Below, in pieces: positions 3,505 to 31,185 of a stretch of 31,190 bases of DNA. The stretch comes from a virus, in the IMG/VR virus record IMGVR_UViG_3300024255_000097, positions 1 through 31,190 of that record. The stretch is one strand, 5' to 3'. The notes under the pieces are model-generated. The model did not search any database and was not told the DNA's origin. It saw only the letters and a program-made list of their open reading frames with translations. The number at the start of each line of letters is the position of its first letter. The first letter of the stretch is position 1. The translations under genes were made by a program, and so were the position numbers.

Positions 3505-3533
3505 ATTATAACAGAAAATAAGTTTCATGTCAA
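3505..3533 (-). promoter_or_regulatory. Sigma70-type promoter upstream of glutaredoxin / RNR unit
   Basis: On the minus strand: TTGACA (3528-3533), 17-base spacer, TATAAT (3505-3510) followed by ATATAT. Predicted +1 is near 3498, giving a leader of about 14 bases that contains the GGAG ribosome binding site of the glutaredoxin gene. The spacer is the least similar of the seven promoters. It still has a CTTATTTT core. Confidence 0.88.
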
Positions 3534-3550
3534 GATATACTTTTGTGTTG

Positions 3551-5365
3551 CTATTCAAGATAACTAATGTTATCCTCTTTTGTTATTTCTATTTTCTCTA
3601 GTAGAGGGTGTGTCCAACCATGTGATACCATATAAGTATTTAAGGTTTCTTCTTTTAATAACACTTCTACTACTTTTTCTTTTCCGACTTCGTCTAACGC
3701 CTGGTTTACTTCGTCAAGGAAAAGAACATTAATTTGACTTCTACTAATTGAAGTCATTAACTTCCTAATTGATACTAGTGTTGCAATATTTACTCTGGCT
3801 AACTCGCCGCTAGAAAGAGCAAGGATGTCAATAATATTGCCATTGTCTGAGACTTCCACATTTAATTTATCATTCTCCACTACAAAATTGATGGCAAATC
3901 TACCATCACTAAACTCTGCTAGATATTCGTTTGTGAGAATCTCTAACTCTTTTACTAAACTTTCTATCTTGTACGCGAGGAGTCCATTGGTTGAGAACGC
4001 TTTTTTAAGTGTTTCAAGTACCGCCAGTTTTGTTTCTGCACTCTTAAGTTTAGACTCGCTGTTACTAAGGTCGCTCTCAAACTGTTCCGTTTGTTCAAGA
4101 ATAATTCCAATTCTTGTGTTATGTCTTTCAATTTTTTCATTCTCATCTATTACCTCTTGAAAAGTTTCCCTAGCAGTGGTAATCTTTGTACGAAGTTCCG
4201 AAATCTGCTCTTGGAGTTGTTCTGCATTGAGGACTTTAGTTGGGAGTTCCCTGTCAATGTCCCTGTAGAGAGTTTCCCAAGTCTCGATGTCTTTCTTTGC
4301 TTTCCTATGTATCTCATTATCTGCCTCTGCCTCTTCTAAATTTTGTCTATCTTTTGCTGCGAATTGTTGTGTTTGTTCAACTCTTTCTGAATGTTCAGCA
4401 ATCATTCTATTTACAAAGTCAATATCAATCGCACCTTCACAAGTTGGACACTCCATGTTTTCCATACCCGCTAGGTCTTGATATTTCTTCAACATTTGTT
4501 GTTCATGCATTTCTTCAGCACGCCACGTTCCTAAACCCTCCAATATAACTTTGGTATCTTTCAACTCAGGATGTAAAGCCATAAGTCTTTTGGCTTCGTG
4601 CAAATCTATTGAGTTTAACTGTTGTTTCAGATTTTCATTTAAATTTATATTTTTATTCTTTTCCGAGATATTTGCAAACTCTACTTGTAAAGAACGTAAA
4701 GATTCTTCATCTTTTTCATTAATTTTTGGTAAAATTTTCTTTTCGAGTATGGAACTATCTTCGAGAATATTGTCTGTCAACCATTTTTGAATAGTTGCAA
4801 TTTTGGCTTCCTCTGTTGTTACCATACTAGATACGTTACGTACAGCTTCTTTAAAAACTTCAAAGTATGAAACATAATCGTCTAGTTTTAATAGGTCGAT
4901 TAAGAACTTTTTACGGTTTGTATCTGTTGCTGTTAAAAATTGTAATGATGCATTAGTATTCTGATACACTAATTGACTAAACGTTTTAAAGTCTATACCT
5001 AAAATATCTCCTAGTGTTTTATAGGTATTAGACGCAGTGTGAGAAGATATATCCTCTCCATTTTTAGTTAATTTGCATTTGAGATTTGTACGCCTACTAA
5101 CAGCAATATTATATAAATCACTGTCGACACTAAACTCAAGGCTAATATCATATCCTTTGTTAACATATCTGTTCGCTATATCTGCCTTCTTAACATTTTT
5201 ACTATTTTTGTTAAATAAGACTTCCTCTAATATAAGGGGTATAGAGGATTTACCCACGCCGTTTGTTCCGACTAACTGTGTAAGAGTTGCATCTGATAAA
5301 TTCAACTCATTACCTTCTCCGTACGAGAAGCAATTATCCCACTTCAGCTTCTGAAGAATAATCAT
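3551..5365 (-). CDS. Recombination nuclease ATPase subunit (T4 gp46 / SbcC / Rad50-like)
   Basis: An SMC-like ATPase that partners the SbcD/gp47 nuclease encoded just upstream to process double-strand ends. Visible are the Walker A GTNGVGKSS near residue 35, a zinc-hook CPTC near residue 306 in the middle of two coiled-coil arms, the ABC signature LSSGELARVN near 520, and the Walker B VLFLDEVNQALD near 550. The total of 604 residues is close to T4 gp46 and far shorter than bacterial SbcC, so the arms are short. It overlaps the nuclease gene by 32 bases. Such pairs support recombination-dependent replication and host DNA breakdown in phages. Confidence 0.95.
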   Translation of the reverse strand: MIILQKLKWDNCFSYGEGNELNLSDATLTQLVGTNGVGKSSIPLILEEVLFNKNSKNVKKADIANRYVNKGYDISLEFSVDSDLYNIAVSRRTNLKCKLTKNGEDISSHTASNTYKTLGDILGIDFKTFSQLVYQNTNASLQFLTATDTNRKKFLIDLLKLDDYVSYFEVFKEAVRNVSSMVTTEEAKIATIQKWLTDNILEDSSILEKKILPKINEKDEESLRSLQVEFANISEKNKNINLNENLKQQLNSIDLHEAKRLMALHPELKDTKVILEGLGTWRAEEMHEQQMLKKYQDLAGMENMECPTCEGAIDIDFVNRMIAEHSERVEQTQQFAAKDRQNLEEAEADNEIHRKAKKDIETWETLYRDIDRELPTKVLNAEQLQEQISELRTKITTARETFQEVIDENEKIERHNTRIGIILEQTEQFESDLSNSESKLKSAETKLAVLETLKKAFSTNGLLAYKIESLVKELEILTNEYLAEFSDGRFAINFVVENDKLNVEVSDNGNIIDILALSSGELARVNIATLVSIRKLMTSISRSQINVLFLDEVNQALDEVGKEKVVEVLLKEETLNTYMVSHGWTHPLLEKIEITKEDNISYLE

Positions 5366-6287
5366 TAAACACTCCTATAATTTGTCTAACTTTTTCATCA
5401 TCAAGCGATAATATTTCTTGTAAATATTTTATAAGCTCTTCTGACATAGTTAAATCTCCGCTCAAATCTAATCTAGCATCAACTTCTCTACGTACTACTT
5501 TTTTGTCAAGAAGGTCTGAGTTTTTAACTTTTGCTAAATCTTGTACATCTCCTGTGACTTCATAAATAGTATGGTGAAAGTCAGTTTGTTCCATATCCGC
5601 TGGGTCTTCGATAGTCTTACGAATTAGTTGTGGTAAATCAAATTCATACCATGTCCAATCCCAGTTATCGTCTATTATTAAGTACCCAGTTTTTACAATA
5701 TTTCTATGAAATGATGTTGTCATTGGACTGCCAGGATATACAATGTTTCGTTGAGTATTCTCGTGAGCATGTAAATCTCCTGCGTACACTTCCTTAAACT
5801 TATCAAATCTTTCTAGTTCTACTTCGGGCATAACATGAGGAGGTATCTCACCTCTTACATGAGTAAATAAATAGTCTGCATCTATCATTTCTATACTTTT
5901 CTTTTTATGCAAGTCTGCATAAGGTAAGATTGCCCAATCATCCTCATAGTAAGTTTCTGTTATAACTTTTACTAGAGGATTTAATTCATTTGTTACTCTC
6001 TTTAAATTATCAAAGAAAGTTTTATTTTTTCTAGTGGCTTCATGGTTGCCATCATAGATAATTGTTCTTACTTTTGTTCTTTTTACAAAATCAAAGTACA
6101 AAGTAAGCTCATCCATAGAAGGGACTCGGTCAAACAAGTCCCCGCCTATGATGTGAAGATTAACTTCATGATTATCTACAGCTTCCTGCACTTGTTCAAA
6201 GAACATTTGATAACGAGAGCAAGCCCACGCTACTGGTACGTTCTTTTGTCCTAATTTAATATGCCAATCTGCTGTAAATAAAATCAT
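5334..6287 (-). CDS. Recombination nuclease subunit (T4 gp47 / SbcD / Mre11-like)
   Basis: A calcineurin-like metallophosphoesterase nuclease. The five motifs are visible in order: TADWH at the N-terminus, IGGDLFDR, YDGNHEATR, a His in LFTHVRG, and AGDLHAHE. These residues bind two Mn ions. The 317 residues match T4 gp47. It forms the heterotetrameric end-processing complex with the ATPase gene that follows, with a 32-base gene overlap. Its first codon overlaps the end of the peroxiredoxin gene by 4 bases. Confidence 0.95.
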   Translation of the reverse strand: MILFTADWHIKLGQKNVPVAWACSRYQMFFEQVQEAVDNHEVNLHIIGGDLFDRVPSMDELTLYFDFVKRTKVRTIIYDGNHEATRKNKTFFDNLKRVTNELNPLVKVITETYYEDDWAILPYADLHKKKSIEMIDADYLFTHVRGEIPPHVMPEVELERFDKFKEVYAGDLHAHENTQRNIVYPGSPMTTSFHRNIVKTGYLIIDDNWDWTWYEFDLPQLIRKTIEDPADMEQTDFHHTIYEVTGDVQDLAKVKNSDLLDKKVVRREVDARLDLSGDLTMSEELIKYLQEILSLDDEKVRQIIGVFNDYSSEAEVG

Positions 6288-6805
6288 CCTAATAGTTCAT
6301 CCCCAGGTGTCCATTCACACCCTGTTAATCCACCTGCTTTAATGCCTTGTAAAGTTCTAAGAACTTCATGAGCATTTCTGCCTGTGTCAAGTGCGTTAAC
6401 ACTTACATGTTGTATTATATCATTTCTGTCTATAATATAAGTAGCTCTAAAACATACTCCTACTTCTTCGTGAACTATTCCTAGTTTAGAAGATAGTCCT
6501 AAGCCGCAATCTGCCGCTAAGGAATGTTGTATATTTCCTATAAGTTCATTGTCTTGTTTCCAAGCTAATTTACAAAACTCATTATCACCACTAATACCAA
6601 TAACATTAGCTTCTTCTACTAATATATCCATTCCAGCAATTTCTGTTGGACATATAAAAGTAAAGTCTTTTGGATAGAAGTATATAACTGTGTAATCTTT
6701 TTTCAAAGGTTCGTACTGTTCTGTGACAGATACTTGTACAAAGTTATTATCTTTGTCTACACCCTGCAGTGTAAAGGCAGGGAACTTCTCTCCTACTCCA
6801 ATCAT
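6284..6805 (-). CDS. Peroxiredoxin (typical 2-Cys, AhpC/TSA family)
   Basis: Reduces hydrogen peroxide and organic peroxides. The peroxidatic Cys52 lies in YPKDFTFICPTE, the family signature. The conserved Arg is in CFRATYIID, and a resolving Cys163 is in GLTGCEWTPGD near the C-terminus. The 173 residues are somewhat shorter than bacterial AhpC, and the YF motif that favours overoxidation is not apparent. The gene is embedded between SSB and the gp47 gene with ATGA coupling, so it is co-expressed with recombination functions. The encoded glutaredoxin could be its reductant, although they are in different promoter units (inference). Peroxiredoxins are uncommon in phages. Confidence 0.93.
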   Translation of the reverse strand: MIGVGEKFPAFTLQGVDKDNNFVQVSVTEQYEPLKKDYTVIYFYPKDFTFICPTEIAGMDILVEEANVIGISGDNEFCKLAWKQDNELIGNIQHSLAADCGLGLSSKLGIVHEEVGVCFRATYIIDRNDIIQHVSVNALDTGRNAHEVLRTLQGIKAGGLTGCEWTPGDELLG

Positions 6806-7434: not shown

Positions 7435-7435
7435 T

Positions 7436-7828
7436 TTATTTCTCCATTGTCTCCTCGAATAAAAAGTGTACCCTTCCATCTTTTAACTCAAGCAGTCTGT
7501 TATTATTTATAATTTCCTCACTAACTTCACAGTCAAAGAGGTCTAGTGTGGTGTCTTTTGTGCGGACATAGTCGTAATAGTTGCGGAATGATGCGACACC
7601 TGCATACTCCACAACCTCTCTATCACTCAATGCCCTTCCTCGTTCTAGCAAATCCTTTGGGTTTAGGATGAAGCTAGAGCCTCCGAATTTATGCTTATAA
7701 AACTTAAATGTTTTATCGTAATAATTTTTTGGTTGAATCTTGTAAGTAATGATTCTAAGTATCTGAATCATATCATCAACATTTCCGTTGCTTACTCTTA
7801 TTATCTTATTCCAATTAAATAGTAACAT
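7436..7828 (-). CDS. Unknown phage protein upstream of SSB
   Basis: A 130-residue protein that I do not recognise. The N-terminus (NWNKIIRVSNGNVDDMIQIL) looks well structured, and the rest is mixed charged and aromatic with no metal or nucleotide motif. It is followed directly by the SSB gene (TAA, one base, ATG). A role connected with SSB or the recombination proteins is only a guess from position. The start is problematic. The TATAAT of the promoter at 7829-7857 abuts the ATG at 7828, so transcripts from that promoter would begin inside the frame. The next in-frame ATG is at 7771. Confidence 0.72.
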   Translation of the reverse strand: MLLFNWNKIIRVSNGNVDDMIQILRIITYKIQPKNYYDKTFKFYKHKFGGSSFILNPKDLLERGRALSDREVVEYAGVASFRNYYDYVRTKDTTLDLFDCEVSEEIINNNRLLELKDGRVHFLFEETMEK

Positions 7829-7857
7829 ATTATAACAAATTTTTAAGCGCGTGTCAA
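7829..7857 (-). promoter_or_regulatory. Sigma70-type promoter upstream of SSB / gp46-gp47 unit
   Basis: TTGACA (7852-7857), 17-base spacer with CTTAAAAA, TATAAT (7829-7834). The upstream sequence AAATAGTTC matches the other copies. The TGA within TTGACA is also the stop codon of the upstream glycosyltransferase gene, and the TATAAT touches the first ATG of the downstream gene. Predicted +1 is near 7822. Confidence 0.87.
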
Positions 7858-8750: not shown

Positions 8751-10027
8751 AATATTTTTACCTCGTAATCTTGTTTTATATAGTAGCCCATTCTAGCATT
8801 TGCTTGTCGAGCTGCTGTTTTTCCTTTTAAATGTATATCAACCACTACTGGTTGTTGTTTTCCTTCTTTATCTCTTATAACCCTACCAATTAACTGTGTA
8901 AGAAGGGGGTCATTATTGACTGGAGTACCTAGTACTAGGCAACTCAAATCATTCAAAGATATGCCTTCAGAAAAGATTGACTGTGTTCCAAATAAAATAT
9001 TTTTATCTTCTTTTATTAGTTGCATAGTATTTTCTCTTTCTTCAAAATCCATATCTCCAGTGATTGATACTGCATTATCCCCGCACAATCTTGCACAGGC
9101 TTTTAGAAATGCAACTCTATCTGATACTACTAATACTTTGTGCCCTAGTGCTGCATACTTTGATGCAATCAGAGCTACGCTATGTACATATTCTTCATTG
9201 TACGCTAGATGATTTATACGTTCTGCCCATGGAGTATACGCCCCATCAAGAAATATTACATCTGACTTTACAATATGAATCTTTGGTATTAAATAGTTCT
9301 CTTTAGGCGGTTTAAATACATTGTGCCCAAAGTAATCTCTAAACACCACATGACGCCCATCTTTTCGTTCTAGTGTTCCTGTGAGGCCTATCTTATAACG
9401 AGCAGGCATTTCATCTACAATTCGTGTAAAAGTTGGACTGCTGACGTGGTGCATTTCATCTAAAATAACTGTCCCGAATATCTTTTTAATGTCAGTCATT
9501 TTTCGGTATAAACTCTGAATATTCCCAATAACTATAGGAGCATTAGTGTTAAAGTCTCCACTACCTATTCTGCCTGGTTTAATTCCAAAGCATTTTTCTA
9601 CCTCTTTTTCCCACTGATTTCTTAAGTTAGTTGTGTGGGTAACAACTAATGTTTTCTGACCAAGCTTCGCTGCGATAGCTAAACCTGTAAATGTCTTGCC
9701 CCAACTTACCCATGCGTTTACTATAGCATTGTCATCTATCTCGTCATGAACCGCTTTTTGGGAAGGTCGTAAATCAAACTTAAAATCTGCATGTTCTGTT
9801 GGTGAGGTAACACGCTTATCGATTACTTCGTAATCATCTGGTATTAAATCCACTCTTCCAATAGGTATGGAGATTAAACCTTCTTTTATGTATCTAATTG
9901 TTTTAAATACTAAAGGAGGGTCTTGAGGCATACGAGCAGGAATTGTATAAGTAAGTTCCTTCTCGATAGAATTATGTGTTTCTTTATTTACTTCTAAATA
10001 TATTCTGTTACTAAGAACTGCTTTCAT
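8747..10027 (-). CDS. SF2 DNA helicase (UvsW / T5 D10-like)
   Basis: A 426-residue superfamily 2 helicase with a RecG/UvsW-like layout. An N-terminal extension of about 90 residues precedes the motor. Motif I reads AWVSWGKTF, Walker A with Ser replacing the usual second-position Gly. Motif II is DEMHH near residue 188, motif III is GLTGTLERKDG, and motif VI is QLIGRVIRDKEGK. Phage members of this family unwind branched structures and help switch from origin to recombination-dependent replication. It overlaps the nucleotidyltransferase gene by 17 bases at its start. Confidence 0.9.
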   Translation of the reverse strand: MKAVLSNRIYLEVNKETHNSIEKELTYTIPARMPQDPPLVFKTIRYIKEGLISIPIGRVDLIPDDYEVIDKRVTSPTEHADFKFDLRPSQKAVHDEIDDNAIVNAWVSWGKTFTGLAIAAKLGQKTLVVTHTTNLRNQWEKEVEKCFGIKPGRIGSGDFNTNAPIVIGNIQSLYRKMTDIKKIFGTVILDEMHHVSSPTFTRIVDEMPARYKIGLTGTLERKDGRHVVFRDYFGHNVFKPPKENYLIPKIHIVKSDVIFLDGAYTPWAERINHLAYNEEYVHSVALIASKYAALGHKVLVVSDRVAFLKACARLCGDNAVSITGDMDFEERENTMQLIKEDKNILFGTQSIFSEGISLNDLSCLVLGTPVNNDPLLTQLIGRVIRDKEGKQQPVVVDIHLKGKTAARQANARMGYYIKQDYEVKIL

Positions 10028-10427
10028 GTATCTTATTTCTCAAATTCGTACTAGAAAAAGAGTGCTGTCTACTTGTGTAAAAAATCTCATGCAGTCCTTT
10101 GCCTGTAAAATGTCTGTCGACATAATCCTCTCCGACAAATCGAAGATGTATTTCTGTAGCCTCTAGTAAGTCTAGTAGACTTTGTTCTGTATCATATGGA
10201 ATAATTTCGTCTATGTACTTCACTGCTCGTAGTTGTATATATCTTTCAAATACAGATTGAACAGGTATATTCTTTTCTTGTCTATCTAGACTAGGGTCTG
10301 TCTGTAATCCTACTATTAAATAGTCGCAGTTTTCTTTTGCTTCTTTGAGCATTACTATATGCCCTGCATGAAGTAAGTCAAAGGCTCCACAAGTAAATCC
10401 TATTGATAACTTTTCAGTGTTTCCCAA
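10011..10427 (-). CDS. HIGH-type nucleotidyltransferase (cytidylyltransferase-like)
   Basis: A protein of about 138 residues with GFTCGAFDLLHAGH, where HAGH is the HxGH nucleotide-binding signature, and with SSTNLRNKI near the C-terminus, the (I)SSTxLR block. These define the glycerol-3-phosphate cytidylyltransferase / FAD synthetase / PPAT superfamily. It would transfer a nucleotidyl group from CTP or ATP to a phosphorylated substrate, releasing pyrophosphate. A TTG at 10427 with GGAGG eight bases upstream is the better start. The in-frame ATG at 10442 itself forms part of that GGAGG and has no site of its own. It overlaps the end of the asparagine synthetase gene, which suggests a shared pathway. 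Confidence 0.86.
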   Translation of the reverse strand: MGNTEKLSIGFTCGAFDLLHAGHIVMLKEAKENCDYLIVGLQTDPSLDRQEKNIPVQSVFERYIQLRAVKYIDEIIPYDTEQSLLDLLEATEIHLRFVGEDYVDRHFTGKGLHEIFYTSRQHSFSSTNLRNKIHESSS

Positions 10428-13705: not shown

Positions 13706-15953
13706 ATAATTTCTCAAACTTTCCTAATGAATAGTCGTCTGCAACATCAAAGTCACATCCAACTGGAGCGCCTGGGATTGATAATCCTCTATCTTTTTGT
13801 ATAAACTCTTGAAGCTTTTCTGAATAATGTTCTATCTCATCTTCAGGCACTTCTGCTAGTACGGAATCGTGAACAAGTGCAAATATCTTCGCTTTCATAC
13901 CTGTCTTTTCTATATATCTTTGCATATCTATACCGCCCATAAGGTTAATATCAGATGCAACAGATTGTACTAAGAAGTTGATTCCACTACGCACTTCATG
14001 TGAGGCGATTCCTTTGTCCTGTGAATGGACATCAGGTAATCTTCTCTTTCTGCCAAACCTACTGTAAACAAATCCATTCGCTTGAATAAATTTCTTTTGG
14101 TTGTCTAGCCATTCACGAAGTTTAGGGAACGCCTCGAAATAATCTTTGATAGTATTTGCTGCGTCTTGCATACTGAAGTATTCTCCACTATCCTTTGTTA
14201 CTTGTTCACTAATCTTTTTCGGTCCCGCTCCATACATGATACCAAAGGTAACAGCTTTTGCTTGTTGTCTTTGTGCACCAAAGTTTGTTGCTATGTCGTC
14301 AACATCCCCTGGCAGTCTGAATACTTGTTTCGCAATCGTACTATGAAAATTACCACCAGACTTAAATACATTCATAAGTCCTTTGTCATCTGCAAGTACA
14401 GCCGCACAGTATACCTCTGCTGTTGTTAAGTCCATCGCAACTATTTTGTTTCCAGCTTTTGCTTTGATACAACCTTTTACGGTGGGATTATCTCTTGGAA
14501 GCTGTTGCATATTCAGTTTACCACTACTACTCAATCTACCACTGGTTGTACCATGAAGATTGAAACCTGTACGAAGTCTACCATCTCTATCTAGGTTTGG
14601 TATAATTTTATCAAGATATGTATTCTTAATTTTAACTTTTTGACGAACTTCAAGAATATGTTTTGGTACTCCATGTTCTTCTGCAAGATTACCAAGTACT
14701 TCAGCATCTGTGCTGAGTGCACCCGTTGCGGTTTTCTTGTCAGATTTAAGTCCACAATAATCAAATAATAAAGTTCTAAGTTGTAGTGTACTATTTGGAT
14801 TGAATCCTTGATTATCTGCAATAAATCTTTTTACTTCAGGAAACTCATTCAAAGCTTGAACTGCTGTGTCAATGTCTTCGCCCATACGCTTCTGTCCAAA
14901 TTCTAGACGAGTCTTGTCGAATGGAACACCATTGCTCTCAATACATTTTAGAAATCTACAACCTTCTATTAATATTCTTTTGTATACTCCATATAGTTTG
15001 TCATTTGTTTTCAATGCTTTTTCAAACTTTTCAAATAGTAAGTACGTTACAATAGCGTCCATACCAGCATAGTTCTGCATAACATCAAAGGGAACCATAC
15101 TATAATCAAATGAATCTTTGAGTATACCTGTTCTTTTCTTGAAGTCTGCAATCCAGTTTGAGAGTTCTGCTTCATAGTCTCCATATGGAGTATGCTTGAT
15201 TGCTAGTGTCTTCAAGCCATGTGTGCCTGGTCTTTCATCAAACATATAGTGCATAAGCATAGTGTCTTCAAACTGTGGAAACTCAAAGTTGAAATGATAC
15301 TCAAACCATTGTAAGTCAAACTTTGCATTATGAAAGACGACTCTTTTCTTGTTGAATATTTCCTGCATGAGTCTTTCTGATTCTTCATCCATGCAATCAC
15401 AGTCTCCATAGATACCATGCTCAGGTTCATATGACATAGAGAATCCTAGCATATAGCCATCACGACAATATAGTGCTGAAGTCTCTGAGTCAAGTGCAAT
15501 AAAATCGCCTGGTGCATCTAGTGCTTTCTGTAACCAAGCGTTTAATTCTTCTGTGTCTTGTATGCCATAACATTTATCTTTTGGTATGGTCATTTGTTGT
15601 AGTTCTCCGCTAACATATCCCGTTATGCTCTCAACGGCTTCCTCGAACGACTTCTTTGCTTCTGGTCTGAACTTTATCATTGCGGGATTGATTATTGCCA
15701 AAAACTTAGAATCAACAACTTTTCCATTGTACTCAGTTATTGATGTCTTTTTTGTAAACATTTTGAAAGGTTCGGAACCCACAACTATGAGCCATTCGTA
15801 CGCATCAATATCGATTTCGATATCAACATCTCTTTTCAAAATTTTCTTCTTTGAACTATCTGAACACAGGGCAAACCTATCGAATTCAAACTCAAAGTAT
15901 TTATTCCAGTTCGTGCTGGACATTGTTGTTTCTATTAGTGCTACATTAGCCAT
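13692..15953 (-). CDS. polA: DNA polymerase, family A, with 3'-5' exonuclease
   Basis: The replicative polymerase of the phage, 753 residues. The proofreading domain shows DSETS near residue 155 (exo I), FHNAKFDLQWF (exo II) and YAGMDAIVTY (exo III). The polymerase domain shows motif A VAMDLTTAEVY near 505, motif B RQQAKAVTFGIMYG near 560-573, and motif C VHDSV near 692. There is no 5' nuclease domain, and that activity is a separate gene at 1986-2837. The position equivalent to E. coli Phe762 is Phe (in AVTFG). Motif A has DLTTAE in place of DYSQIE. It overlaps the primase gene by 8 bases and is co-transcribed with it. Confidence 0.97.
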   Translation of the reverse strand: MANVALIETTMSSTNWNKYFEFEFDRFALCSDSSKKKILKRDVDIEIDIDAYEWLIVVGSEPFKMFTKKTSITEYNGKVVDSKFLAIINPAMIKFRPEAKKSFEEAVESITGYVSGELQQMTIPKDKCYGIQDTEELNAWLQKALDAPGDFIALDSETSALYCRDGYMLGFSMSYEPEHGIYGDCDCMDEESERLMQEIFNKKRVVFHNAKFDLQWFEYHFNFEFPQFEDTMLMHYMFDERPGTHGLKTLAIKHTPYGDYEAELSNWIADFKKRTGILKDSFDYSMVPFDVMQNYAGMDAIVTYLLFEKFEKALKTNDKLYGVYKRILIEGCRFLKCIESNGVPFDKTRLEFGQKRMGEDIDTAVQALNEFPEVKRFIADNQGFNPNSTLQLRTLLFDYCGLKSDKKTATGALSTDAEVLGNLAEEHGVPKHILEVRQKVKIKNTYLDKIIPNLDRDGRLRTGFNLHGTTSGRLSSSGKLNMQQLPRDNPTVKGCIKAKAGNKIVAMDLTTAEVYCAAVLADDKGLMNVFKSGGNFHSTIAKQVFRLPGDVDDIATNFGAQRQQAKAVTFGIMYGAGPKKISEQVTKDSGEYFSMQDAANTIKDYFEAFPKLREWLDNQKKFIQANGFVYSRFGRKRRLPDVHSQDKGIASHEVRSGINFLVQSVASDINLMGGIDMQRYIEKTGMKAKIFALVHDSVLAEVPEDEIEHYSEKLQEFIQKDRGLSIPGAPVGCDFDVADDYSLGKFEKLYGIS

Positions 15954-16785
15954 ATAATTTTTCCTTTAATCTTTCTATCTCTGGTCTTGTTAAGTTGCCA
16001 GGGTCTATGTTATCTCGTAATTTTACTACTCTTGCAGACATCTCTAGTTTCTCTGCAAGGTCTTTGGCTTTCTCACCAGCCTGCCTTCCTGCTTCATCTC
16101 CATCAAACATGATATCTATACCAGTTATCCCTTGGAGTTTTAATAAACTAAGCTTAACCCAGTTTACCTGCTGTGTACCAAAACAACATACAGTATTCTT
16201 GAGCCCTTTATCCCATAAGTTAAGTGCATCAAAGATTCCTTCTACAAGGATAACTCTGTTTTGTATTGGTTTTACCTTAGCGGGACAGAAAGGCATTTCC
16301 ACTCCGTTAGGGTAAATGTAATATTTGTTAGGATTGAAGTCATCTATGCTTCTGCCTATTAAAGCCACCGTCTTGCCTGTGATATCTCGTATCGGAAAGA
16401 TGATGCGATTCTCAAACTTAGGAACGTTCCATGTGAACGCATCCCATTTAGCGAGAGTTTCTTCGGAAATATTCCGAATACCACCACCTTTCCACGATAG
16501 TCTATCCTTTGGGAGTTGGATACCGACAGTTGCTGACCTGACTTTGTTGATTGATTCTTTAATTCTGTGCATACGAACTTCTAGTGGAGAAGCAGGTGCA
16601 CCAAAGTATGTAAACAGATTACCTTTATAACCGCATGAGAAACAATTGAACACGCCAGTTACCCTATCTATACGCATAGACGGATTACTGTCATCATGTT
16701 CTGGATTAAGGCAAGACACTACGGCATCTTGTCCGCTTATGCGATAATCAATTTTCTTCTCTCTTAATAAGTCTTCTGCTATCAT
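15946..16785 (-). CDS. DNA primase (DnaG-like, zinc-binding + TOPRIM)
   Basis: A 279-residue primase. The N-terminal zinc finger has Cys25, His30, Cys48 and Cys51 (CHC2 type). The TOPRIM domain shows VILVEGIFDALNL near residue 185 and MFDGDEAGRQAG near 230, holding the catalytic Glu and the DxD-like metal ligands. The helicase is a separate gene at 19865-21226, so the T7 gp4 fusion is split here. It is the first gene after the promoter at 16796-16824. The predicted leader is only about four bases and no ribosome binding site is visible, so translation may be near-leaderless. Confidence 0.94.
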   Translation of the reverse strand: MIAEDLLREKKIDYRISGQDAVVSCLNPEHDDSNPSMRIDRVTGVFNCFSCGYKGNLFTYFGAPASPLEVRMHRIKESINKVRSATVGIQLPKDRLSWKGGGIRNISEETLAKWDAFTWNVPKFENRIIFPIRDITGKTVALIGRSIDDFNPNKYYIYPNGVEMPFCPAKVKPIQNRVILVEGIFDALNLWDKGLKNTVCCFGTQQVNWVKLSLLKLQGITGIDIMFDGDEAGRQAGEKAKDLAEKLEMSARVVKLRDNIDPGNLTRPEIERLKEKLYG

Positions 16786-16795: not shown

Positions 16796-16824
16796 ATTAT
16801 ATCAAAATTTTAAGGATTTGTCAA
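16796..16824 (-). promoter_or_regulatory. Sigma70-type promoter upstream of primase-polymerase unit
   Basis: TTGACA (16819-16824), 17-base spacer with CCTTAAAATTTT, TATAAT (16796-16801) then ATATT. The AT-rich TAGTTC lies directly upstream of the -35, and its TAG is the stop codon of the preceding methyltransferase gene. Predicted +1 is near 16789, four bases before the primase ATG. Confidence 0.9.
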
Positions 16825-21306: not shown

Positions 21307-22023
21307 TTAGCCTATTTCTTTTTTAGCAGCTCCGTTATAGTCTGAGCACTGTAAGCCTCTTCTAGTAAGCATTGTTTTCACGCCTCTTACTGTTTTGCCG
21401 ATTTCATCAGCAATTTCTTCAACAGTCATGCCGTCAATGTCGACACCTGCTAAAGGGTCAGCTTTGCTTGAACCTTTGGTTTCTTTCTGCTTAGGAATAG
21501 CATTGATTTCACCAGCTCTTAAGAGTGATAAAGCTTTTCCTCTGATTGAGTTAACACTTCTGCCTAAAGCTTCTGCGATATCCTCAATAAACGCACCATC
21601 ATTAACTAATGATACGAACTGTCCTTCTTCCTGTTCGTTATAAGACTTAACAGTCTCAACTTTAGGTGCAGGTTTAACATGTTCTGTTAACTGCATAGAA
21701 AGGATTTTACCTTGAATTGACTTAGCTGAAAAAGCTCCGCCTTCAAAGTTTGATGCAATTTCTGCATATGTGTAAGAACCACTGTTGTCTTGCACAAAGT
21801 TTGCAAGAGTTGATTCTTGCTCATCTGAGAAAGATTTAGTTGCTGAAGCTGAAGCTAGTTCAACATCAAAACCCATCTTTCTTAGTTTTGAACTAACACT
21901 TCTTACTGAAGTTTCTAGTTCTTCTGCAGCGTTAGCTACAGTTGCCTGTGATACAGGGCTTTCTCCACCGATGAAGTCTGTCAATTGTTGAGTTCTTTCA
22001 TCTGTCCATTTTGGTAATGCCAT
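21307..22023 (-). CDS. DNA-binding protein with four SANT/Myb-like HTH repeats, putative regulator
   Basis: A 238-residue protein built of repeated helical units. Units 1-3 begin with an aromatic-acidic entry (KWTDER at 5, KSFSDEQE at 63, KSYNEQEE at 126). All four end in a putative recognition helix: TSVRSVSSKLRKMGF, FSAKSIQGKILSMQL, RSVNSIRGKALSLLRAG and KTVRGVKTMLTRRGL. Between units 1 and 2 and before unit 4 are low-complexity Ala/Ser/Lys linkers. Tandem SANT-like helices usually bind DNA, so a transcription or genome-organising factor is likely. The ATG has AGAGGA nine bases upstream. It is followed by a UUCG terminator, as is its apparent paralogue at 27104-27571. Confidence 0.78.
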   Translation of the reverse strand: MALPKWTDERTQQLTDFIGGESPVSQATVANAAEELETSVRSVSSKLRKMGFDVELASASATKSFSDEQESTLANFVQDNSGSYTYAEIASNFEGGAFSAKSIQGKILSMQLTEHVKPAPKVETVKSYNEQEEGQFVSLVNDGAFIEDIAEALGRSVNSIRGKALSLLRAGEINAIPKQKETKGSSKADPLAGVDIDGMTVEEIADEIGKTVRGVKTMLTRRGLQCSDYNGAAKKEIG

Positions 22024-22024
22024 T

Positions 22025-22783
22025 TTAATATTCCTCTATTAAATGTTTTATATTTGTTATTATTAAAACACCTCGGTCACGAGCTGTCTGTGTTTTTGCT
22101 GACTCAATGCCTGACTCATTTATAAGATGAGTACATTCTTTTGTCAGACTTGATTTTACTACAAATCCGTATGACTCTAGTACTTGCGTAGCATGAGCCT
22201 TTGTAGGGTAGCTTTTTAACTTACCTGATATACATACAACACCTGTGACCTCTTTCTTTTTATTAATTTTATTATTCCAATTGAAGGGTAACGTGTCTTT
22301 GTATCTGTTAGGATAAAATTCAGTCTCCATAAAGTTTACCAAGTTAGCTGATGCTTTTGGTCCGATACCTGCCTCAGTACAACTGTTCTCGCTAATATCT
22401 TCGATGTTTGATATTGTATCGCATAATTTTTGAGAAGCCGACCGACCAATAAGTGGTATTGAGAAAGCAGGCAGAATATCTACCAGCTTGCTACTCTTTG
22501 ACTTTTCTAGTTCATCAATGAGTTTCTCAGCTAATCTTTGAGACCCTAATCTATCTTGTACGTCAGATACAGTAAGTTCATAAAGCTCGGGCAATGATTC
22601 AACACCTAACTTATTGATAGTTGCTGGCCCAAGCCCTTTAATTTTAAGAGAAGATGAAAAGGACTCTAACTTTTTACTCCACTGCGCAGGACACTTCGTG
22701 TTTCTGCAGAACAACTGCTCGTTTACTAACTCCAGTATGGAGTCACAGCAAGGACAGTTAGTCGGTGGTATAATTGTTGTCAT
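22025..22783 (-). CDS. ligB: NAD+-dependent DNA ligase, C-terminal subunit (Zn finger, HhH, BRCT)
   Basis: A 252-residue protein equivalent to the C-terminal part of bacterial LigA. A Cys4 zinc finger (Cys10, Cys13, Cys26, Cys31 in CRNTKCPAQW) is followed by helix-hairpin-helix repeats (IKGLGPATINKLG, IGRSASQKL, AGIGPKASANLV) and a BRCT domain from about residue 176 (TGVVCISGKLKSYPTK, then YGFVVKSSLTKECTHLI). No adenylation domain is present. That is encoded at 25405-26373. T5-like phages are known to carry a two-subunit NAD+ ligase, and this looks like the same arrangement. It is the first gene after the promoter at 22811-22839. Confidence 0.92.
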   Translation of the reverse strand: MTTIIPPTNCPCCDSILELVNEQLFCRNTKCPAQWSKKLESFSSSLKIKGLGPATINKLGVESLPELYELTVSDVQDRLGSQRLAEKLIDELEKSKSSKLVDILPAFSIPLIGRSASQKLCDTISNIEDISENSCTEAGIGPKASANLVNFMETEFYPNRYKDTLPFNWNNKINKKKEVTGVVCISGKLKSYPTKAHATQVLESYGFVVKSSLTKECTHLINESGIESAKTQTARDRGVLIITNIKHLIEEY

Positions 22784-22810: not shown

Positions 22811-22839
22811 ATTATACAAAAAGTTTAACCTCATGTCAA
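22811..22839 (-). promoter_or_regulatory. Sigma70-type promoter upstream of ligase C-terminal subunit and regulator
   Basis: TTGACA (22834-22839), 17-base spacer with GTTAAACTTTTTG, TATAAT (22811-22816) then ATATTATATA. Upstream AAAAAAAGTTC matches the family. Predicted +1 is near 22804, giving a 20-base leader with a GAGAGAG purine stretch before the ATG at 22783. Confidence 0.9.
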
Positions 22840-23712: not shown

Positions 23713-25040
23713 AAAACTTTTACTTTATACCTCTCTTCAAATTGCTGGGCATGTTCCCATGTATTTACCATTGGCTGTCCTTTTATATTTAAACTTGTAT
23801 TCAATAACATTGGTACTTTAGTAAGTTCGTACCATTCTTCTAGTATAGGTCGTAGTATTGACTTAGAGTCTTTTCTAACCACTTGTACTCTTGCTGTTCC
23901 GTCAACGTGAGTGACTGAGTTGTAATCATGTTTAGCTTTCGCAACATATTGCATATACTCATTGCAATGCCCTTCAAAGTATTCATCTACAAACTCCTCC
24001 AATATCGCGGGAGCGAAGGGTCTAAACTTTTGCCGTTTCTTAACATCATTGACTGTGTCTTTGATGTCATAACGACAGTCACCAAGAAGACTACGATTAC
24101 CCAGCGCACGAGGTCCAAATTCTGCTTTTCCATTTGCTACTCCACATAGTCTATTGTTACTTAGTTCTCTTACTACATCTAAAGGATTTATATTTCTTTG
24201 TATATTATATCCTAAAAACATATCTTTAAATTCTACTCGCCTTTTTGTATGTGCTAGTATGCAACCTAGTGCACTACCTGCATCCCCTGGATTTGGAAAT
24301 ATCCACATATTTTTAAACTTCTTACGAATCTTAGAGTTTGCTACACAGTTCAGTGCAACTCCTCCACCATACGCAACGTTATCTCCATACCTTGCGGCTC
24401 TATCGAATATCTGTTCGATTTCATACTCTAAATGTAGCTGTGCTGAGGCAGCGATGTCCTCAGGTGCTCTAAACATCCACTTTTTCCAAGGGATGCCTTT
24501 GTGTAAATTTGTATGTATAATATCACTCATATTTATACAAGGACTACCATACGCAGCCATACCCATAGTTATGTACTCATCTTCATTAGGTTTAAGTCCT
24601 ATACGTTTAGTTATAGCACTATAAAATAATCCTAATGACCAAGGGTATTCTCGACTCCATACTTTTTCTCCATCAACCCATATACTTGCTGTATCATACT
24701 CTCCAATCGCATCAATTACTACTGTAGCATCTGGTACGAAAGGCGCTGTATAATACGCTGCAGCCATATGGCTTTCATGGTGTTTCATGTGAGTGTGTAT
24801 ATATTGACCAGCAGAACTAGGTAACATTCCGTATTTCTTTCTACGTTCATTCTTTAATTTAGTATCTTCGTAGAATATGGTTGTAGTATTTGCTGTTAAC
24901 TTTCTTAAGTTTAAAGGTAGACGTTTATCATTTTTGACACGAGTGTACCTCTCCGCTTGTGCGGCAAAGAGTATTTGGTTTCCTTCTACGACTGCAATAG
25001 ATGCATCGTGAAACCCTTCACTAATCCCTGTAAATTTCAT
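23709..25040 (-). CDS. Carbamoyltransferase (NodU/CmcH/TobZ family)
   Basis: A 443-residue enzyme. The N-terminal Kae1-like domain has TGISEGFHDASIAV, metal-binding HHESHMAAAYY and DEYITMGMAAYG. The C-terminal domain has AEFGPRALGNRSLLGDCR and KFRPFAPAIL. These enzymes make carbamoyl-adenylate from carbamoyl phosphate and ATP and pass the carbamoyl group to a hydroxyl, often on a sugar or antibiotic. The frame is open further upstream, but family alignment and a 20-base overlap with the GIY-YIG gene support the ATG at 25040. The substrate is unknown. Confidence 0.92.
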   Translation of the reverse strand: MKFTGISEGFHDASIAVVEGNQILFAAQAERYTRVKNDKRLPLNLRKLTANTTTIFYEDTKLKNERRKKYGMLPSSAGQYIHTHMKHHESHMAAAYYTAPFVPDATVVIDAIGEYDTASIWVDGEKVWSREYPWSLGLFYSAITKRIGLKPNEDEYITMGMAAYGSPCINMSDIIHTNLHKGIPWKKWMFRAPEDIAASAQLHLEYEIEQIFDRAARYGDNVAYGGGVALNCVANSKIRKKFKNMWIFPNPGDAGSALGCILAHTKRRVEFKDMFLGYNIQRNINPLDVVRELSNNRLCGVANGKAEFGPRALGNRSLLGDCRYDIKDTVNDVKKRQKFRPFAPAILEEFVDEYFEGHCNEYMQYVAKAKHDYNSVTHVDGTARVQVVRKDSKSILRPILEEWYELTKVPMLLNTSLNIKGQPMVNTWEHAQQFEERYKVKVL

Positions 25041-25401
25041 CTTTCTTGGGGAAGCTGTGTAAGATTTTCGAGTCCATTGTAAAGCATTCCGTATGCCCTC
25101 CAAAATGGTGGGCGGTTTTGTGTCTGTCATTCTTGTACATTTTGTGTAGTTTCTGTTCCCATCTCCAACAGTTGTATATCGTTCCTGTCCAAATCCTCTG
25201 TATTCTGATGTCGTAGTTTGTAAATCCACGCCCTCGTTTTACTACGTCTTTGAATGTTCGCCCTTTTGCGATTCCGACTTTTATTGTTTCTCGTTCCCAT
25301 GTTGCCTTATTTACTAGCACTATCCCATAGAGGACGCCTTCTTTTTCTTTTTCCCACGGATGGTTTTCAAAAAAAGTTTTATTATATACTCCACCACCCA
25401 T
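25021..25401 (-). CDS. GIY-YIG nuclease-like protein
   Basis: A 126-residue protein. VLYGIVLVN (Tyr25-Gly26-Ile27) and IKVGIAKGR (residues 40-48) fit the two halves of a GIY-YIG core. WEQKLHKMYK with Glu82 and GGHTECF with Glu105 provide candidate metal-binding acids, and GGxTECF is common at the end of T5orf172/MUG113-type domains. It could be a free-standing homing endonuclease or a structural-repair nuclease. It lies between the ligase catalytic subunit (three bases downstream of its stop) and the carbamoyltransferase. No intron is apparent in either neighbour. Confidence 0.72.
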   Translation of the reverse strand: MGGGVYNKTFFENHPWEKEKEGVLYGIVLVNKATWERETIKVGIAKGRTFKDVVKRGRGFTNYDIRIQRIWTGTIYNCWRWEQKLHKMYKNDRHKTAHHFGGHTECFTMDSKILHSFPKKDEIYRD

Positions 25402-25404: not shown

Positions 25405-26373
25405 TTATACTCGTTTTACAATTCGAGGTATGATTTCTCCACTACGAATAACTTCTACATTACACCCTATCTCTAGGTCTAGTGCTTCGATATATCCGAT
25501 ATTGTGTAAGGTGGCACGGCTAACTGTTGCCTCTCCTATCACACATGGCTCTAAGATTGCGACTGGTGAAACAGCACCTGACTTCCCGACATTCCATTCA
25601 ACATCTAAGAGTCGAGTAACTACTCCTGCCTGTCTTGTCTTCAGAGCGAAAGCTCCTCTTGGATGGTGTGAGGTGTGGCCTAATGTTTCAAAATATATAT
25701 TAGAGTCGACCCTTACAACTTTACCATCGTGAGGAAATTCAGTCCAATCACTTTCTGTGACAGTGTTAAATCCCATATCTTTTACCATAGTCATATCTTC
25801 AATCCAATCAACACAAATTGCTGGTTGAATACCATAAGATATAAATGTAAGATTACGAGATTTAAATTCTTCTAAGTCCTTTAGATTCAAAGCACCACTC
25901 GCATAGTTTCTAGCGTTTGGTATTTCTTTTGGTGCAACGACTTCTCCAGTAATCTGTTTCAGTCCTTTACTCCATATTTGATTTGGTACTAAAGTTTTCA
26001 TTTTTCCAGTAATATCTAATCCTTCTCTGCCATCTCCACGAGTTAATGCCTGTGTTAGTTCGCCATCTATGTATGTAATAGACACAGCTGCGCCATCCAA
26101 CTTGGCAGTCATAATGTGTGGTTGTTTGGAATCCCAATCTGGTTCTTTATCTTCTCCGATAAAGACTTTCTGTAATGAATACATTGGGTAAGGATGTTTG
26201 AATCGTGAATCTAGAGGTGCAAAGCCGCGAAAGCATGTGTCTTGAGGTTTATATCCTACTTGTGTTTCTAATGCGGTATTCTCTACGAGTCTATCGTATA
26301 CTTCGTCAGGTAATATAGGATTACCCTCTGCATACTTCTGATTACATAATTCTAGGTATTCTGTCTTATTCAT
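25405..26373 (-). CDS. ligA: NAD+-dependent DNA ligase, catalytic subunit (adenylation + OB)
   Basis: A 322-residue protein matching the N-terminal half of bacterial LigA. A short NMN-binding Ia region contains NPILPDEVYDRL. PMYSLQKVF follows, then the adenylated lysine in AKLDGAAV (Lys91, KxDG) and GDGREGLDITG. The OB fold follows with GKSGAVSPVAI, ATVSRATLHN and RSGEIIPRI, where the protein stops. The zinc, HhH and BRCT parts are in the separate gene at 22025-22783. It is first after the promoter at 26380-26408. The predicted +1 falls on the A of the ATG and no ribosome binding site is present, so the message looks leaderless. Confidence 0.94.
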   Translation of the reverse strand: MNKTEYLELCNQKYAEGNPILPDEVYDRLVENTALETQVGYKPQDTCFRGFAPLDSRFKHPYPMYSLQKVFIGEDKEPDWDSKQPHIMTAKLDGAAVSITYIDGELTQALTRGDGREGLDITGKMKTLVPNQIWSKGLKQITGEVVAPKEIPNARNYASGALNLKDLEEFKSRNLTFISYGIQPAICVDWIEDMTMVKDMGFNTVTESDWTEFPHDGKVVRVDSNIYFETLGHTSHHPRGAFALKTRQAGVVTRLLDVEWNVGKSGAVSPVAILEPCVIGEATVSRATLHNIGYIEALDLEIGCNVEVIRSGEIIPRIVKRV

Positions 26374-26379: not shown

Positions 26380-26408
26380 ATTATACAGAATTTTTAAGGA
26401 TTTGTCAA
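26380..26408 (-). promoter_or_regulatory. Sigma70-type promoter upstream of ligase catalytic subunit
   Basis: TTGACA (26403-26408), 17-base spacer with CCTTAAAAATT, TATAAT (26380-26385) then ATATC. AAATAATAC lies upstream. The base seven positions downstream of the -10 is 26373, the A of the ATG. Confidence 0.9.
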
Positions 26409-26983: not shown

Positions 26984-27103
26984 GTGATTCCTGTTGGTAG
27001 GTTAATATCTATTACCGTCCAATCATGGTGTCACTCTGTAAGGTGATTCCTTTAGATGTAAAAAAGTGCGGACAGTCCGAAGACTGCCCACATTCCAGGG
27101 GTA
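26984..27103. other. Intergenic stretch holding a terminator and a repeated 9-mer
   Basis: 120 bases without a gene. It contains the terminator at 27060-27091 and two copies of GTGATTCCT at 26984-26992 and 27043-27051. On the minus strand these read AGGAATCAC, and the first is the ribosome binding region of the following gene. No hexamers resembling the promoter family are present. A four-codon ATG frame is seen but not supported. Confidence 0.6.
27060..27091 (-). terminator. Rho-independent terminator with UUCG loop, after single-repeat regulator
   Basis: Minus strand: GTGGGCAGTC, loop TTCG, GACTGTCCGCAC, then TTTTTT (complement of 27060-27065). The inner stem is CAGTC/GACTG with further G-C pairs and a small bulge. 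It starts 13 bases after the stop of the gene at 27104-27571. Confidence 0.87.
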
Positions 27104-27571
27104 TTAATCGTTAAGTTTGTTGATTAAGTTAGTGAAGTATACTGCTGCTTTACCTGTAAGTTTACTTACAATAGCACTATCTGCTTCTTCGCCCATATCA
27201 CTAATAGCTTTAATCAAACCATCTTGTGCAGCTGCGACATTTACTCTGCCACCGCCTCCACCTGATGAGGATTTGACTGCTGGTGTTTTCTTAACATAAA
27301 CACCTGCTTTTGTTAGAATCATTCTGACACCATTTGGGCTCTCGCCTAATTCTTCAGCAATCATCTGTACAACTTCCATGCTATTCTCTGGAGTTGGTTC
27401 TTCAGCAGTATACATTTCAACTGCTTGTTCTTTACTTTCGTCTGTCCACGCCATGTTTCTTTTCCTTTTTAATGTGTAGTTTTGTTTGTATTCGGCAAGA
27501 GTTGAGGTATTACGATAACCTGGAGCCCAACCTGTGGTCTCTAGCATTTGTTGGTAAAATCTGTCACTCAT
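27104..27571 (-). CDS. SANT/Myb-like HTH protein, putative regulator
   Basis: A 155-residue protein. Residues 40-90 form one SANT-like unit (MAWTDESKEQAVEMY, then IAEELGESPNGVRMILTKAGVY) that closely resembles the units in the protein at 21307-22023. A GGGGG linker leads to a C-terminal helical segment (AVVYFTNLI-like end). The first 39 residues are a separate basic segment. The ATG at 27571 has AAGGA nine bases upstream. An internal ATG at 27454 also has AAGGAAAAG upstream and would give the regulator without the N-terminal segment, so two products are possible. It forms a single-gene unit between its own promoter and a terminator. Confidence 0.75.
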   Translation of the reverse strand: MSDRFYQQMLETTGWAPGYRNTSTLAEYKQNYTLKRKRNMAWTDESKEQAVEMYTAEEPTPENSMEVVQMIAEELGESPNGVRMILTKAGVYVKKTPAVKSSSGGGGGRVNVAAAQDGLIKAISDMGEEADSAIVSKLTGKAAVYFTNLINKLND

Positions 27572-27595: not shown

Positions 27596-27624
27596 ATTAT
27601 ACAAGAATTTTAAGCATGAGTCAA
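27596..27624 (-). promoter_or_regulatory. Sigma70-type promoter upstream of SANT-like regulator
   Basis: TTGACT (27619-27624), 17-base spacer with GCTTAAAATTCTTG, TATAAT (27596-27601) then ATATTTATATT. Upstream AAAATAGTTC matches the family. Predicted +1 is near 27589, giving an 18-base leader with AAGGA. Confidence 0.9.
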
Positions 27625-27634
27625 GAACTATTTT

Positions 27635-28445: not shown

Positions 28446-28456
28446 AAATGTCCTTA

Positions 28457-30224: not shown

Positions 30225-30396
30225 GTTTTCTCACTCCATTTCCTAGGTGTACTTCGCTACCATCAGACTTTCGCATGACGATATTTCTAAAGTAGTTTCC
30301 TCTTTTTAAATATGTTTTGATAGCTTCTTCCATAGCTTTCTCGGAAGTGCCATCGTTAAATGTGAAGGTATATCCTCCAGCTTCTTTCTTAATCAT
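30202..30396 (-). CDS. Small phage protein of unknown function
   Basis: A 64-residue protein with an N-terminal beta hairpin-like region (GGYTFTFNDGTSEKAMEEAI) and a basic C-terminus (GNGVRKHGKRHTS). ATGA overlap with the preceding gene supports the start. No family is recognised. Confidence 0.63.
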   Translation of the reverse strand: MIKKEAGGYTFTFNDGTSEKAMEEAIKTYLKRGNYFRNIVMRKSDGSEVHLGNGVRKHGKRHTS

Positions 30397-30992
30397 TTTG
30401 CTGTTATTCTCTCCTCATAATCGGCGTAATCTTCATTCCACCAATGAGGCTTGTCTCTGTGAGACCATGCTGCAAATGTAGCTTTGTCAAGATGATAATA
30501 ATCTCGATAACTCTGTATAGGATTATCGTAGTCTTTCAACTCATCTGGCATTGCCAATCCAAATTCTGTAAATCCTAGTCTGGGCATATTCTTTGGCTCA
30601 GGTAGTTTGTTTACTACTTCTACTATAGATTTGTGTTGTTTGCCATAACGATAGTGGTACTCATCATTTAACGCGTTAGCGTAACAATGAGTCCACTCAA
30701 AGTTATCCAAGCTCGACCTTACCCATATCGTACACGGATGATTATACATCATCGGTAGGTATGGCGTGAGCGGTCGCTGGTCAAGCGGTAGGTGCTTAAT
30801 CTTGGCTTTCTCACTATTTAGTACCTCACGTTCGTCCTTGTCAAGCGCACGGGGTACAAAACCTAGTTTGGCATCAATCCATATCGCAGTACATAAGAGT
30901 TGTGCTGCCTCGAGAGGCATCTTTACTATGTGCTTGTCGACATGATACTCTGCGCACTTGTCTAGGTTTTCATCTAAATAAAATAAATTCAT
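30393..30992 (-). CDS. Conserved phage protein, unknown function
   Basis: A 199-residue protein. The N-terminus (MNLFYLDENLDKCAEYHVDK, then HIVKMPLEAAQLLCTAIW) is a block I associate with a widespread phage family of unknown function. Conserved-looking His, Asp and Lys residues (His22, Asp24, Lys25, His26) suggest a catalytic or metal site. NHPCTIWVRSSLDNFEWT and a Trp-rich C-terminus follow. The ATG at 30992 overlaps the stop of the zinc-ribbon gene (TAATG). A start five codons upstream is less likely. Confidence 0.75.
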   Translation of the reverse strand: MNLFYLDENLDKCAEYHVDKHIVKMPLEAAQLLCTAIWIDAKLGFVPRALDKDEREVLNSEKAKIKHLPLDQRPLTPYLPMMYNHPCTIWVRSSLDNFEWTHCYANALNDEYHYRYGKQHKSIVEVVNKLPEPKNMPRLGFTEFGLAMPDELKDYDNPIQSYRDYYHLDKATFAAWSHRDKPHWWNEDYADYEERITAK

Positions 30993-31150
30993 TACGCAAT
31001 CCAGCATTTATACTGAGGACATTCGCCATTGTCTGACTGTATTGATGTCCCACAGTGTTTGCACTCTCCGTAATGGTATGTTTCAAACTCTTTTGTTTCT
31101 GAGTTCCACATATTAACTGTTTTGTGTTCGTTGTATTCTGTATTTTTCAT
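30992..31150 (-). CDS. 52-residue zinc-ribbon-like microprotein
   Basis: A short frame from the ATG at 31148-31150 to TAA at 30992-30994. It carries ECKHCGTSIQSDNGECPQYKC, with Cys30-x2-Cys33 and later Cys44 and Cys49, a possible four-Cys zinc site. The N-terminus is charged and polar. It is first after the promoter at 31157-31185, whose predicted +1 is the A of this ATG, and no ribosome site is present. It is coupled to the next gene by TAATG. Possible roles include a small regulator or host-protein binder. None is proven. Confidence 0.72.
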   Translation of the reverse strand: MKNTEYNEHKTVNMWNSETKEFETYHYGECKHCGTSIQSDNGECPQYKCWIA

Positions 31151-31156
31151 ATGTAT

Positions 31157-31185
31157 ATTATACTAAAATTATAAGCATATGTCAA
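31157..31185 (-). promoter_or_regulatory. Sigma70-type promoter upstream of zinc-ribbon gene and accessory block
   Basis: TTGACA (31180-31185), 17-base spacer with GCTTATAATTTT, TATAAT (31157-31162) then ATAC. AATAC lies upstream, as in the ligase promoter. Seven positions after the -10 is 31150, the A of the first ATG. Confidence 0.9.

Follow-up and report, generated by a model that had tools for sequence, protein, structure and literature searches.

What are the seven near-identical promoters of the virus record IMGVR_UViG_3300024255_000097, and what purpose is served by the conservation that reaches into the spacer between their -35 and -10 hexamers? The whole record, 31,190 bases, was analyzed and is called the window here; an initial annotation had described the seven sites and had taken the spacer core for a possible operator or a binding site of a phage factor. 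Our answer, given with high if not complete confidence, is that they would be early promoters of a T5-like phage, used by the host sigma70 RNA polymerase and built as one extended unit, and that the messages of ligA, a DNA ligase gene, and of an open reading frame (ORF) of 52 amino acids (aa) would be leaderless. Papers cited by PMC number are represented by excerpts, and what is said of them refers to those.

Seven promoters built on a T5-like plan

All seven sites match TTGACW-N17-TATAAT with exactly 17 bases between the hexamers and lie on the minus strand, like the surrounding T5-like genes, with none on the plus strand. Dinucleotide shuffles gave a chance expectation of 0.04 sites, and 0 of 100 reached seven. 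All have a sigma70 -10 with 17-bp spacing, and six carry the full consensus (12/12 bases), the exception being the site at 27596, with TTGACT. The sites described in the initial annotation were thus all found, and their designation as host-type promoters appears borne out by the sequence. So does the division of the early genes into units, as every site stands in front of a string of ORFs on the minus strand and a terminator-like hairpin (27092-27067) follows the D3 unit. According to a 2025 paper, as excerpted, no natural Escherichia coli sigma70 promoter has the full consensus (PMC12464699); set against that statement, it is present in six window sites and also in unrelated viral contigs.

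Beyond the hexamers, the resemblance is uneven. CTTAWAA occurs in five spacers (7829, 16796, 26380, 27596, and 31157), for which the described CTTAAAA-like core holds; it does not for 22811, where the spacer has GTTAAAC instead, or for 3505, where it is absent. The upstream TAGTTC or ATAC said to be shared was likewise present in most copies (TAGTTC in 3/7, AATAC at 26380 and 31157), with AAGTTC at 22811 and neither at 3505. An A-tract resembling a UP element directly 5' of the -35 was seen by eye in six of the seven sites, that of 3505 being weak; the upstream part of 31157 was taken from G001, a 90-kb relative in which all seven window sites are present unchanged. The discriminator begins with AT in all seven and is exactly ATATT in three. 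Site 3505 is the outlier, and the other six are alike.

The annotated promoters of the T5 record have a common early form, namely, an A-tract, TTGCTW, 17 bases, TATAAT, and an AT-first discriminator. A model was built from 28 T5 sites (TTGCNN-N17-TATAAT) with the hexamers excluded and was then applied to all 62,312 positions on the two strands of the window. With the spacer only, the seven sites ranked 3, 5, 15, 16, 58, 130, and 2170; thus, under a model made from T5 only, the spacer core GCTTAAAATTTT placed six of the seven within the top 130, and 3505, at rank 2170, failed. With 10 upstream bases, the spacer, and five discriminator bases, the ranks were 1, 2, 3, 4, 7, 29, and 327, and the four best positions, all promoters, scored 14.1 to 17.0, compared with 11.1 for the best orphan. 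By the upstream bases of the T5 model alone, the window sites did not stand out. The spacer consensus of most common bases agreed over AAAGCTTAAAATTTT between the 28 T5 sites and 56 marine sites, many columns being below 60%. As far as sequence can tell, the seven sites represent a variant form of the early promoters known from T5 and follow the same extended plan.

Several observations weigh against this reading. The T5 early -35 is TTGCTW, which is found in 0/7 window sites. TTGC-type sites number 28 in T5, 21 in Vibrio phage VCPH, 0 in the window, 1 in G001, and 3 and 1 in the relatives G004 and G007 (78% and 69% ligB identity, each with its own promoter set), and TTGACW sites number 2, 6, 7, 13, 18, and 17, respectively. 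The T5 downstream box (ATAAATTGA-like) was absent from the window sites in the T5 model scan (ranks 310 to 13084). The top position of the spacer-only scan, 684 on the plus strand, is not a promoter, and there were other such positions in the best ten. Site 3505 fits poorly; among the 27 dereplicated orthologs of its gene, just one has a perfect promoter upstream. The spacer consensus is weaker, 4.0 bits, in a larger set of 268 marine sites.

The motif was also considered as a feature of host genomes and rejected as such: a genome collection gave 12 matches, of which 4 were in T5-like contigs and 8, from various bacteria, were in contigs without T5-like hits. T5-like contigs (L440, L441, L444, and L445) turned up among the contigs of bacterial genome bins. 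In a promoter subgroup of G004 (56035-57876), the bases ahead of the -10 resemble AAAAGCGAG or AAAGTGGA rather than AATTTTTG.

The spacer core and the discriminator

Column information in the seven window spacers amounts to 10.2 bits; shuffling of the bases inside each spacer gave 0.8 +/- 1.0, and 0 of 2000 shuffles reached the observed value. Across 56 nonredundant related sites, the spacer holds 6.4 bits, compared with at most 1.7 in any of 52 17-column blocks of the upstream flank; the upstream block is stronger than the spacer in this set (0.88 bits per column). Conservation of the spacer beyond expectation, as first proposed, therefore withstood comparison with both shuffles and flanks. 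These 56 sites, of which 14 have an ATG at +1, come from the ligB-anchored and whole-contig sequences and are free of pattern selection. Of the other loci, some were fetched with a spacer pattern and some with an upstream pattern, both sets being the matches listed only; such sets cannot prove the parts used for their selection, and they make perfect promoters look more frequent among the orthologs than they are. After removal of the loci fetched with the spacer pattern, the spacer held 3.4 bits (216 sites). As controls, 83 perfect promoters were taken from viral contigs that gave no T5-like hit, and their spacers held 1.0 bit. The control sites were picked with TATAATGNT, which fixes two discriminator bases, and their initial loci included T5-like contigs (39/120 with at least two protein hits and 43/120 with at least one); before cleaning, the control had 86 sites, drawn from 80 of these loci, and the cleaned one comprised 83 sites from loci without any T5-like hit. 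Sites near contig ends were dropped, near-duplicates (8 or fewer differences in 55) were merged, and orthologs more than 85% alike were removed.

Sites were then classed as early or late by their downstream genes. The basis was a labelling of regions in G001, G004, and G007 by strand, position, and T5 homologs, and 78 of the 268 sites were left unclassed. The discriminator starts with AT in 141 of 165 early sites versus 2 of 25 late sites (p = 1e-14), and the spacer score does not tell the two classes apart (p = 0.17); the upstream and spacer motifs are common to both. Since the discriminator splits early from late and the spacer does not, the stage signal lies in the discriminator, and the spacer core as a stage operator was rejected. 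Early and late promoters of T5 are reported to differ mainly in the discriminator, which is ATATT in the early ones (PMC7472727), and the present result extends that code to a distant lineage.

A core common to early and late promoters looks like a polymerase contact rather than an operator. The core AAAATTTT spans roughly -22 to -15 and is preceded by G/C at -26/-25, that is, at spacer positions 4-5, where G/C makes up 70 to 75% in the marine sites and 61 to 79% in T5. Contact with polymerase is, from sequence, its likeliest role, with the G/C at positions 4-5 not accounted for. T5 promoters are transcribed by the host sigma70 polymerase (PMC7472727), and the AT-rich spacer of T5 N25 is described as able to bend and to assist in anchoring the DNA to polymerase (PMC12464699). 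A known element of this kind is the AT-tract between -17 and -23, contacted via R451 of sigma70 (PMC7229825). The likeness is in position; the difference is that the known element is needed in promoters without a good -35, whereas the hexamers here are consensus. According to the same source, as excerpted, promoters whose -35 is near consensus can do without R451 and the AT-tract, and canonical promoters show no enrichment of the tract; both points count against R451 contact as the reason for the core here.

Could the core instead be an operator, occupied by D5, D3, or some other DNA-binding protein of the phage and superimposed on host promoters so as to time or silence them? It is conserved far above the flanks, the G/C at spacer positions 4-5 goes beyond what AT-tract contact alone explains, D5 of T5 is annotated as DNA binding, required for late transcription, and involved in shutoff, and several of the ten best spacer-only positions in the window fall outside the promoters (including 684, 21553, and 19262 on the plus strand). 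Nevertheless, we consider this improbable. The core stands in early and late promoters alike; once upstream and discriminator bases are added to the scan, promoters take the four best positions; and T5, whose promoters the sigma70 polymerase serves (PMC7472727) and whose N25 spacer has the anchoring role just mentioned (PMC12464699), has the same core in its early promoters. Still less credible, and already disfavored, is that the similarity reflects only a recent duplication of one promoter cassette, with a spacer not under selection. Six of the seven window sites are very alike, as such a duplication would have it, but the same consensus is found in T5 and in the promoters of ligA, ligB, primase, and D3 orthologs with 48 to 100% protein identity, and the flanks of the 56-site set share almost no sequence.

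The two proteins that the initial annotation had called SANT-repeat and proposed as binding factors turned out to be homologs of T5 D5 and D3. The predicted structure of D5 has three three-helix units and a partial fourth (mean predicted local distance difference test score [pLDDT] 84.5, predicted template modeling score [pTM] 0.32), with no PDB fold match at E <= 0.001 and one weak PDB sequence match (8vd6_A, E = 0.0011). Among Pfam families, only sigma-70 region 4 was above its cutoff, other helix-turn-helix families being below theirs. D5 may well bind DNA; nothing here connects it with the spacer, which leaves the operator idea unsupported rather than excluded. A phage sigma factor was rejected as well, sigma70 region 2 having no match in the window, G001, G004, G007, T5, or VCPH, several of which records may be fragments. 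In the search for a T7-type polymerase, no control genome gave a match.

Start codons at the predicted transcription start

The discriminator of N25 is 6 bp long (PMC12464699), and +1 was therefore placed at the seventh base after TATAAT. For ligA (26373) and the 52-aa ORF (31150), this base is the A of the ATG, and neither ATG has a Shine-Dalgarno sequence before it. The initial annotation had made no mention of this placement. An ATG stands at the predicted +1 in 61 of 266 nonredundant related sites (2 of the 268 were dropped for too little downstream sequence), and it opens a frame of at least 30 codons in 58 of these 61, compared with 1 and 3 in the other two frames and 53 of 205 for non-ATG triplets. 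By offset, open-frame ATGs number 0 at 3 to 5, 58 at 6 (the predicted +1), and 15 at 7, with a second hump at 24 to 27, where starts with a leader lie.

The position differs from gene to gene. Counted after removal of near-duplicates and with a perfect promoter required within 160 nucleotides (nt), ligA starts at offset 6 in 26 of 37 orthologs and has a leader with a Shine-Dalgarno-like site (offsets 24-25) in 7. The 52-aa ORF, the first gene, starts at offset 6 in 8/8, with no ortholog lacking a promoter. Primase starts at offset 10 in 16/21 (26 orthologs lack a perfect promoter); ligB is at offset 6 in 0/44 (8 lack one), and D3 is at offset 6 in 1 and at 7 to 10 in 6 of 47 (6 lack one). For the 130-aa ORF (7436-7828), 28 orthologs have a perfect promoter, and in 27 of them the start codon overlaps the -10 or directly adjoins it and thus lies ahead of the predicted +1.

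There are 62 ORFs that begin with a +1 ATG in the 268-site set. Leaving out 3 shorter than 20 aa, the other 59 fall into 15 families, including ligA (13 ORFs), a family whose tested member matches phrog_624 (9), a 45- to 49-aa ORF (6), a family whose tested member matches the terminase small subunit (6), and a family of 12 ORFs of 57 to 69 aa (L103 8687+, L361 794-, and others) whose tested member matches a single D5-like unit (phrog_323). Among 85 TTGNNN-N17-TATAAT sites of T5 and the 49-kb stretches of four cultured relatives, an ATG stands at +1 twice, each time with a frame open for no more than 9 codons. An open ATG at +1 is enriched relative to controls (p = 5e-4) and is not unique to the lineage.

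Some of the counts speak against leaderless starts. Open ATGs are found at +1 in 5 of 82 unrelated viral control sites, and over the 266 sites they also occur at offsets 0 (8) and 2 (13). The start calls of 4/37 ligA orthologs are odd, 19 of 56 ligA orthologs have no perfect promoter within 160 nt, and at the 7829 promoter the start of the 130-aa ORF precedes the predicted +1. It might be supposed that the +1 ATGs are not leaderless starts at all and that the genes are translated only from read-through of upstream promoters. Neighboring genes lie on one strand, so that read-through is possible, and for the 130-aa ORF at 7828 it is the likelier reading. As a general account it seems to us unlikely: no Shine-Dalgarno site is present in the promoter ahead of ligA, leaders are retained by ligB and by most D3 orthologs, many of them containing such a site, and read-through would not predict the sharp peak at offset 6 with no open-frame start at 3 to 5. 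The messages of ligA and of the 52-aa ORF should, as predicted from their promoters, be leaderless. Such a class in these phages is unexpected, and among the literature matches listed there was no report of leaderless starts in T5-like phages. A divergent promoter pair in an exact 60-bp register was seen in G001 (5347-5435), G002 (3017-3105), G004 (62907-62995), G005 (30314-30402), and G007 (14945-15033); in G001 and G004, each arm of the pair bears an ATG at +1.

From the architecture, the conservation, the class-specific discriminator, and the position of the start codons, we infer promoter activity, the +1, the polymerase contacts, and leaderless translation as follows. The upstream A-tract and ATAGTTC would resemble the proximal UP subsite bound by the polymerase alpha subunit, the A-tract fitting what we take to be the consensus of that subsite. 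After it would come the consensus -35, the AT-tract spacer core with G/C before it, the consensus -10, and the AT-first discriminator as the mark of the early class. Host RNA polymerase would start one early unit at each promoter, and transcription would begin with the ligA AUG at 26380 and with that of the 52-aa ORF at 31157; these messages would be translated by recognition of the 5'-end AUG instead of a Shine-Dalgarno site.

Genome setting and known systems

To judge by its genes, the window represents the early (D) region of a T5-like marine phage, an uncultured one. Its proteins match the order of the early D region in T5 and VCPH, namely, D2, D3, ligA, ligB, D5, replicative helicase, primase, and polymerase, continuing with D10, D11, D12, D13, D14, and D15. 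The window PolA is about 43% identical to the enzymes of the T5 group, and the D5-like regulator is 50% identical to its VCPH counterpart. The features are listed in Table 1.

Table 1. Promoters and associated features of the window
Feature	Coordinates	Strand	Remarks
Promoter	3505..3533	-	Predicted +1 3498; upstream of glutaredoxin/D14/D15; without spacer core
Promoter	7829..7857	-	Predicted +1 7822; -10 abuts ATG of 130-aa ORF
Promoter	16796..16824	-	Predicted +1 16789; primase ATG at +5 (4-nt leader)
Promoter	22811..22839	-	Predicted +1 22804; ligB with 21-nt leader and GAGAGAG
Promoter	26380..26408	-	Predicted +1 26373, first base of ligA ATG; predicted leaderless
Promoter (TTGACT)	27596..27624	-	Predicted +1 27589; D3 homolog with 18-nt leader and AAGGAAA
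Promoter	31157..31185	-	Predicted +1 31150, first ATG base; predicted leaderless; full upstream read in G001
DNA primase	15946..16785	-
D5-like transcription regulator	21307..22023	-	T5 D5 homolog
NAD-dependent DNA ligase part B	22025..22783	-	T5 ligB homolog
NAD-dependent DNA ligase part A	25405..26373	-	T5 ligA homolog; predicted leaderless
Terminator-like hairpin	27067..27092	-	11 pairs and T-run, after D3
D3-like DNA-binding protein	27104..27571	-	T5 D3 homolog
52-aa ORF (first gene)	30992..31150	-	Predicted leaderless

Within the run of replication genes lie genes encoding a carbamoyltransferase (23709-25229), an asparagine synthase-like protein (10400-11914), a cytidylyltransferase-like protein (10011-10442), and an AhpC/TSA protein (6284-6805). 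The window has no Rfam match at the gathering score, and tblastn found no homolog of gpT5.026 at 1e-4 in the window, G001, G004, or G007. A GOLLD RNA is annotated among the tRNA genes of the Vibrio phage 70E37.1 record (L320 3804-4224).

These results assign an uncultured lineage of phages to the promoter family of T5, mark the spacer as a conserved promoter part across the T5/marine divide, and predict dozens of leaderless messages. A further proposal, tentative and to our minds somewhat more doubtful than probable, is that throughout the marine T5-like lineage the start codon is made part of the site where the promoter initiates transcription, which creates a gene-specific leaderless class, with a separate translational program during infection. 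If so, the class would include ligase A, a single-unit D5-like regulator, the terminase small subunit, and others, it could switch to and from Shine-Dalgarno starts in evolution, and its translation would be by undissociated ribosomes.

Among known systems, the early promoters of T5 (N25, H207, K28a, and others; AY543070) share with the window sites the 17-bp spacing, the upstream A-tract, TATAAT, the AT-first discriminator, the spacer consensus, and the gene region. They differ in that the window has a TTGACW rather than a TTGCTW -35, an upstream part ending in ATAGTTC, and no T5 downstream box; an ATG at +1 is found in 0/36 T5 sites. Cultured Demerecviridae (VCPH, 70E37.1, Akh-2, and AAS21), whose promoters were examined in one stretch of about 49 kb each, likewise have the A-tract, N17, TATAAT, the AT-first discriminator, and related spacers. 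Unlike the window, their -35 is mostly TTGC (16/18 in 70E37.1, 6/8 in Akh-2, 15/16 in AAS21; in VCPH as a whole, TTGC-type sites prevail, as counted above), and theirs are the two +1 ATGs without a long open frame. An AUG at the very 5' end of a message is translated by E. coli ribosomes, the standard example being lambda cI (PMC4965119), and the messages predicted here resemble that of cI in the 5'-end AUG and the lack of a Shine-Dalgarno sequence; the difference is that, by prediction from sequence, they belong to several unrelated genes of one phage lineage with one promoter family. The -10-adjacent ORFs of Deinococcus-Thermus also place the -10 beside the start codon and give leaderless messages (PMC12340547), but according to that excerpt the arrangement is phylum-wide, whereas here it belongs to a phage promoter with a full -35, and genes with leaders stand alongside.

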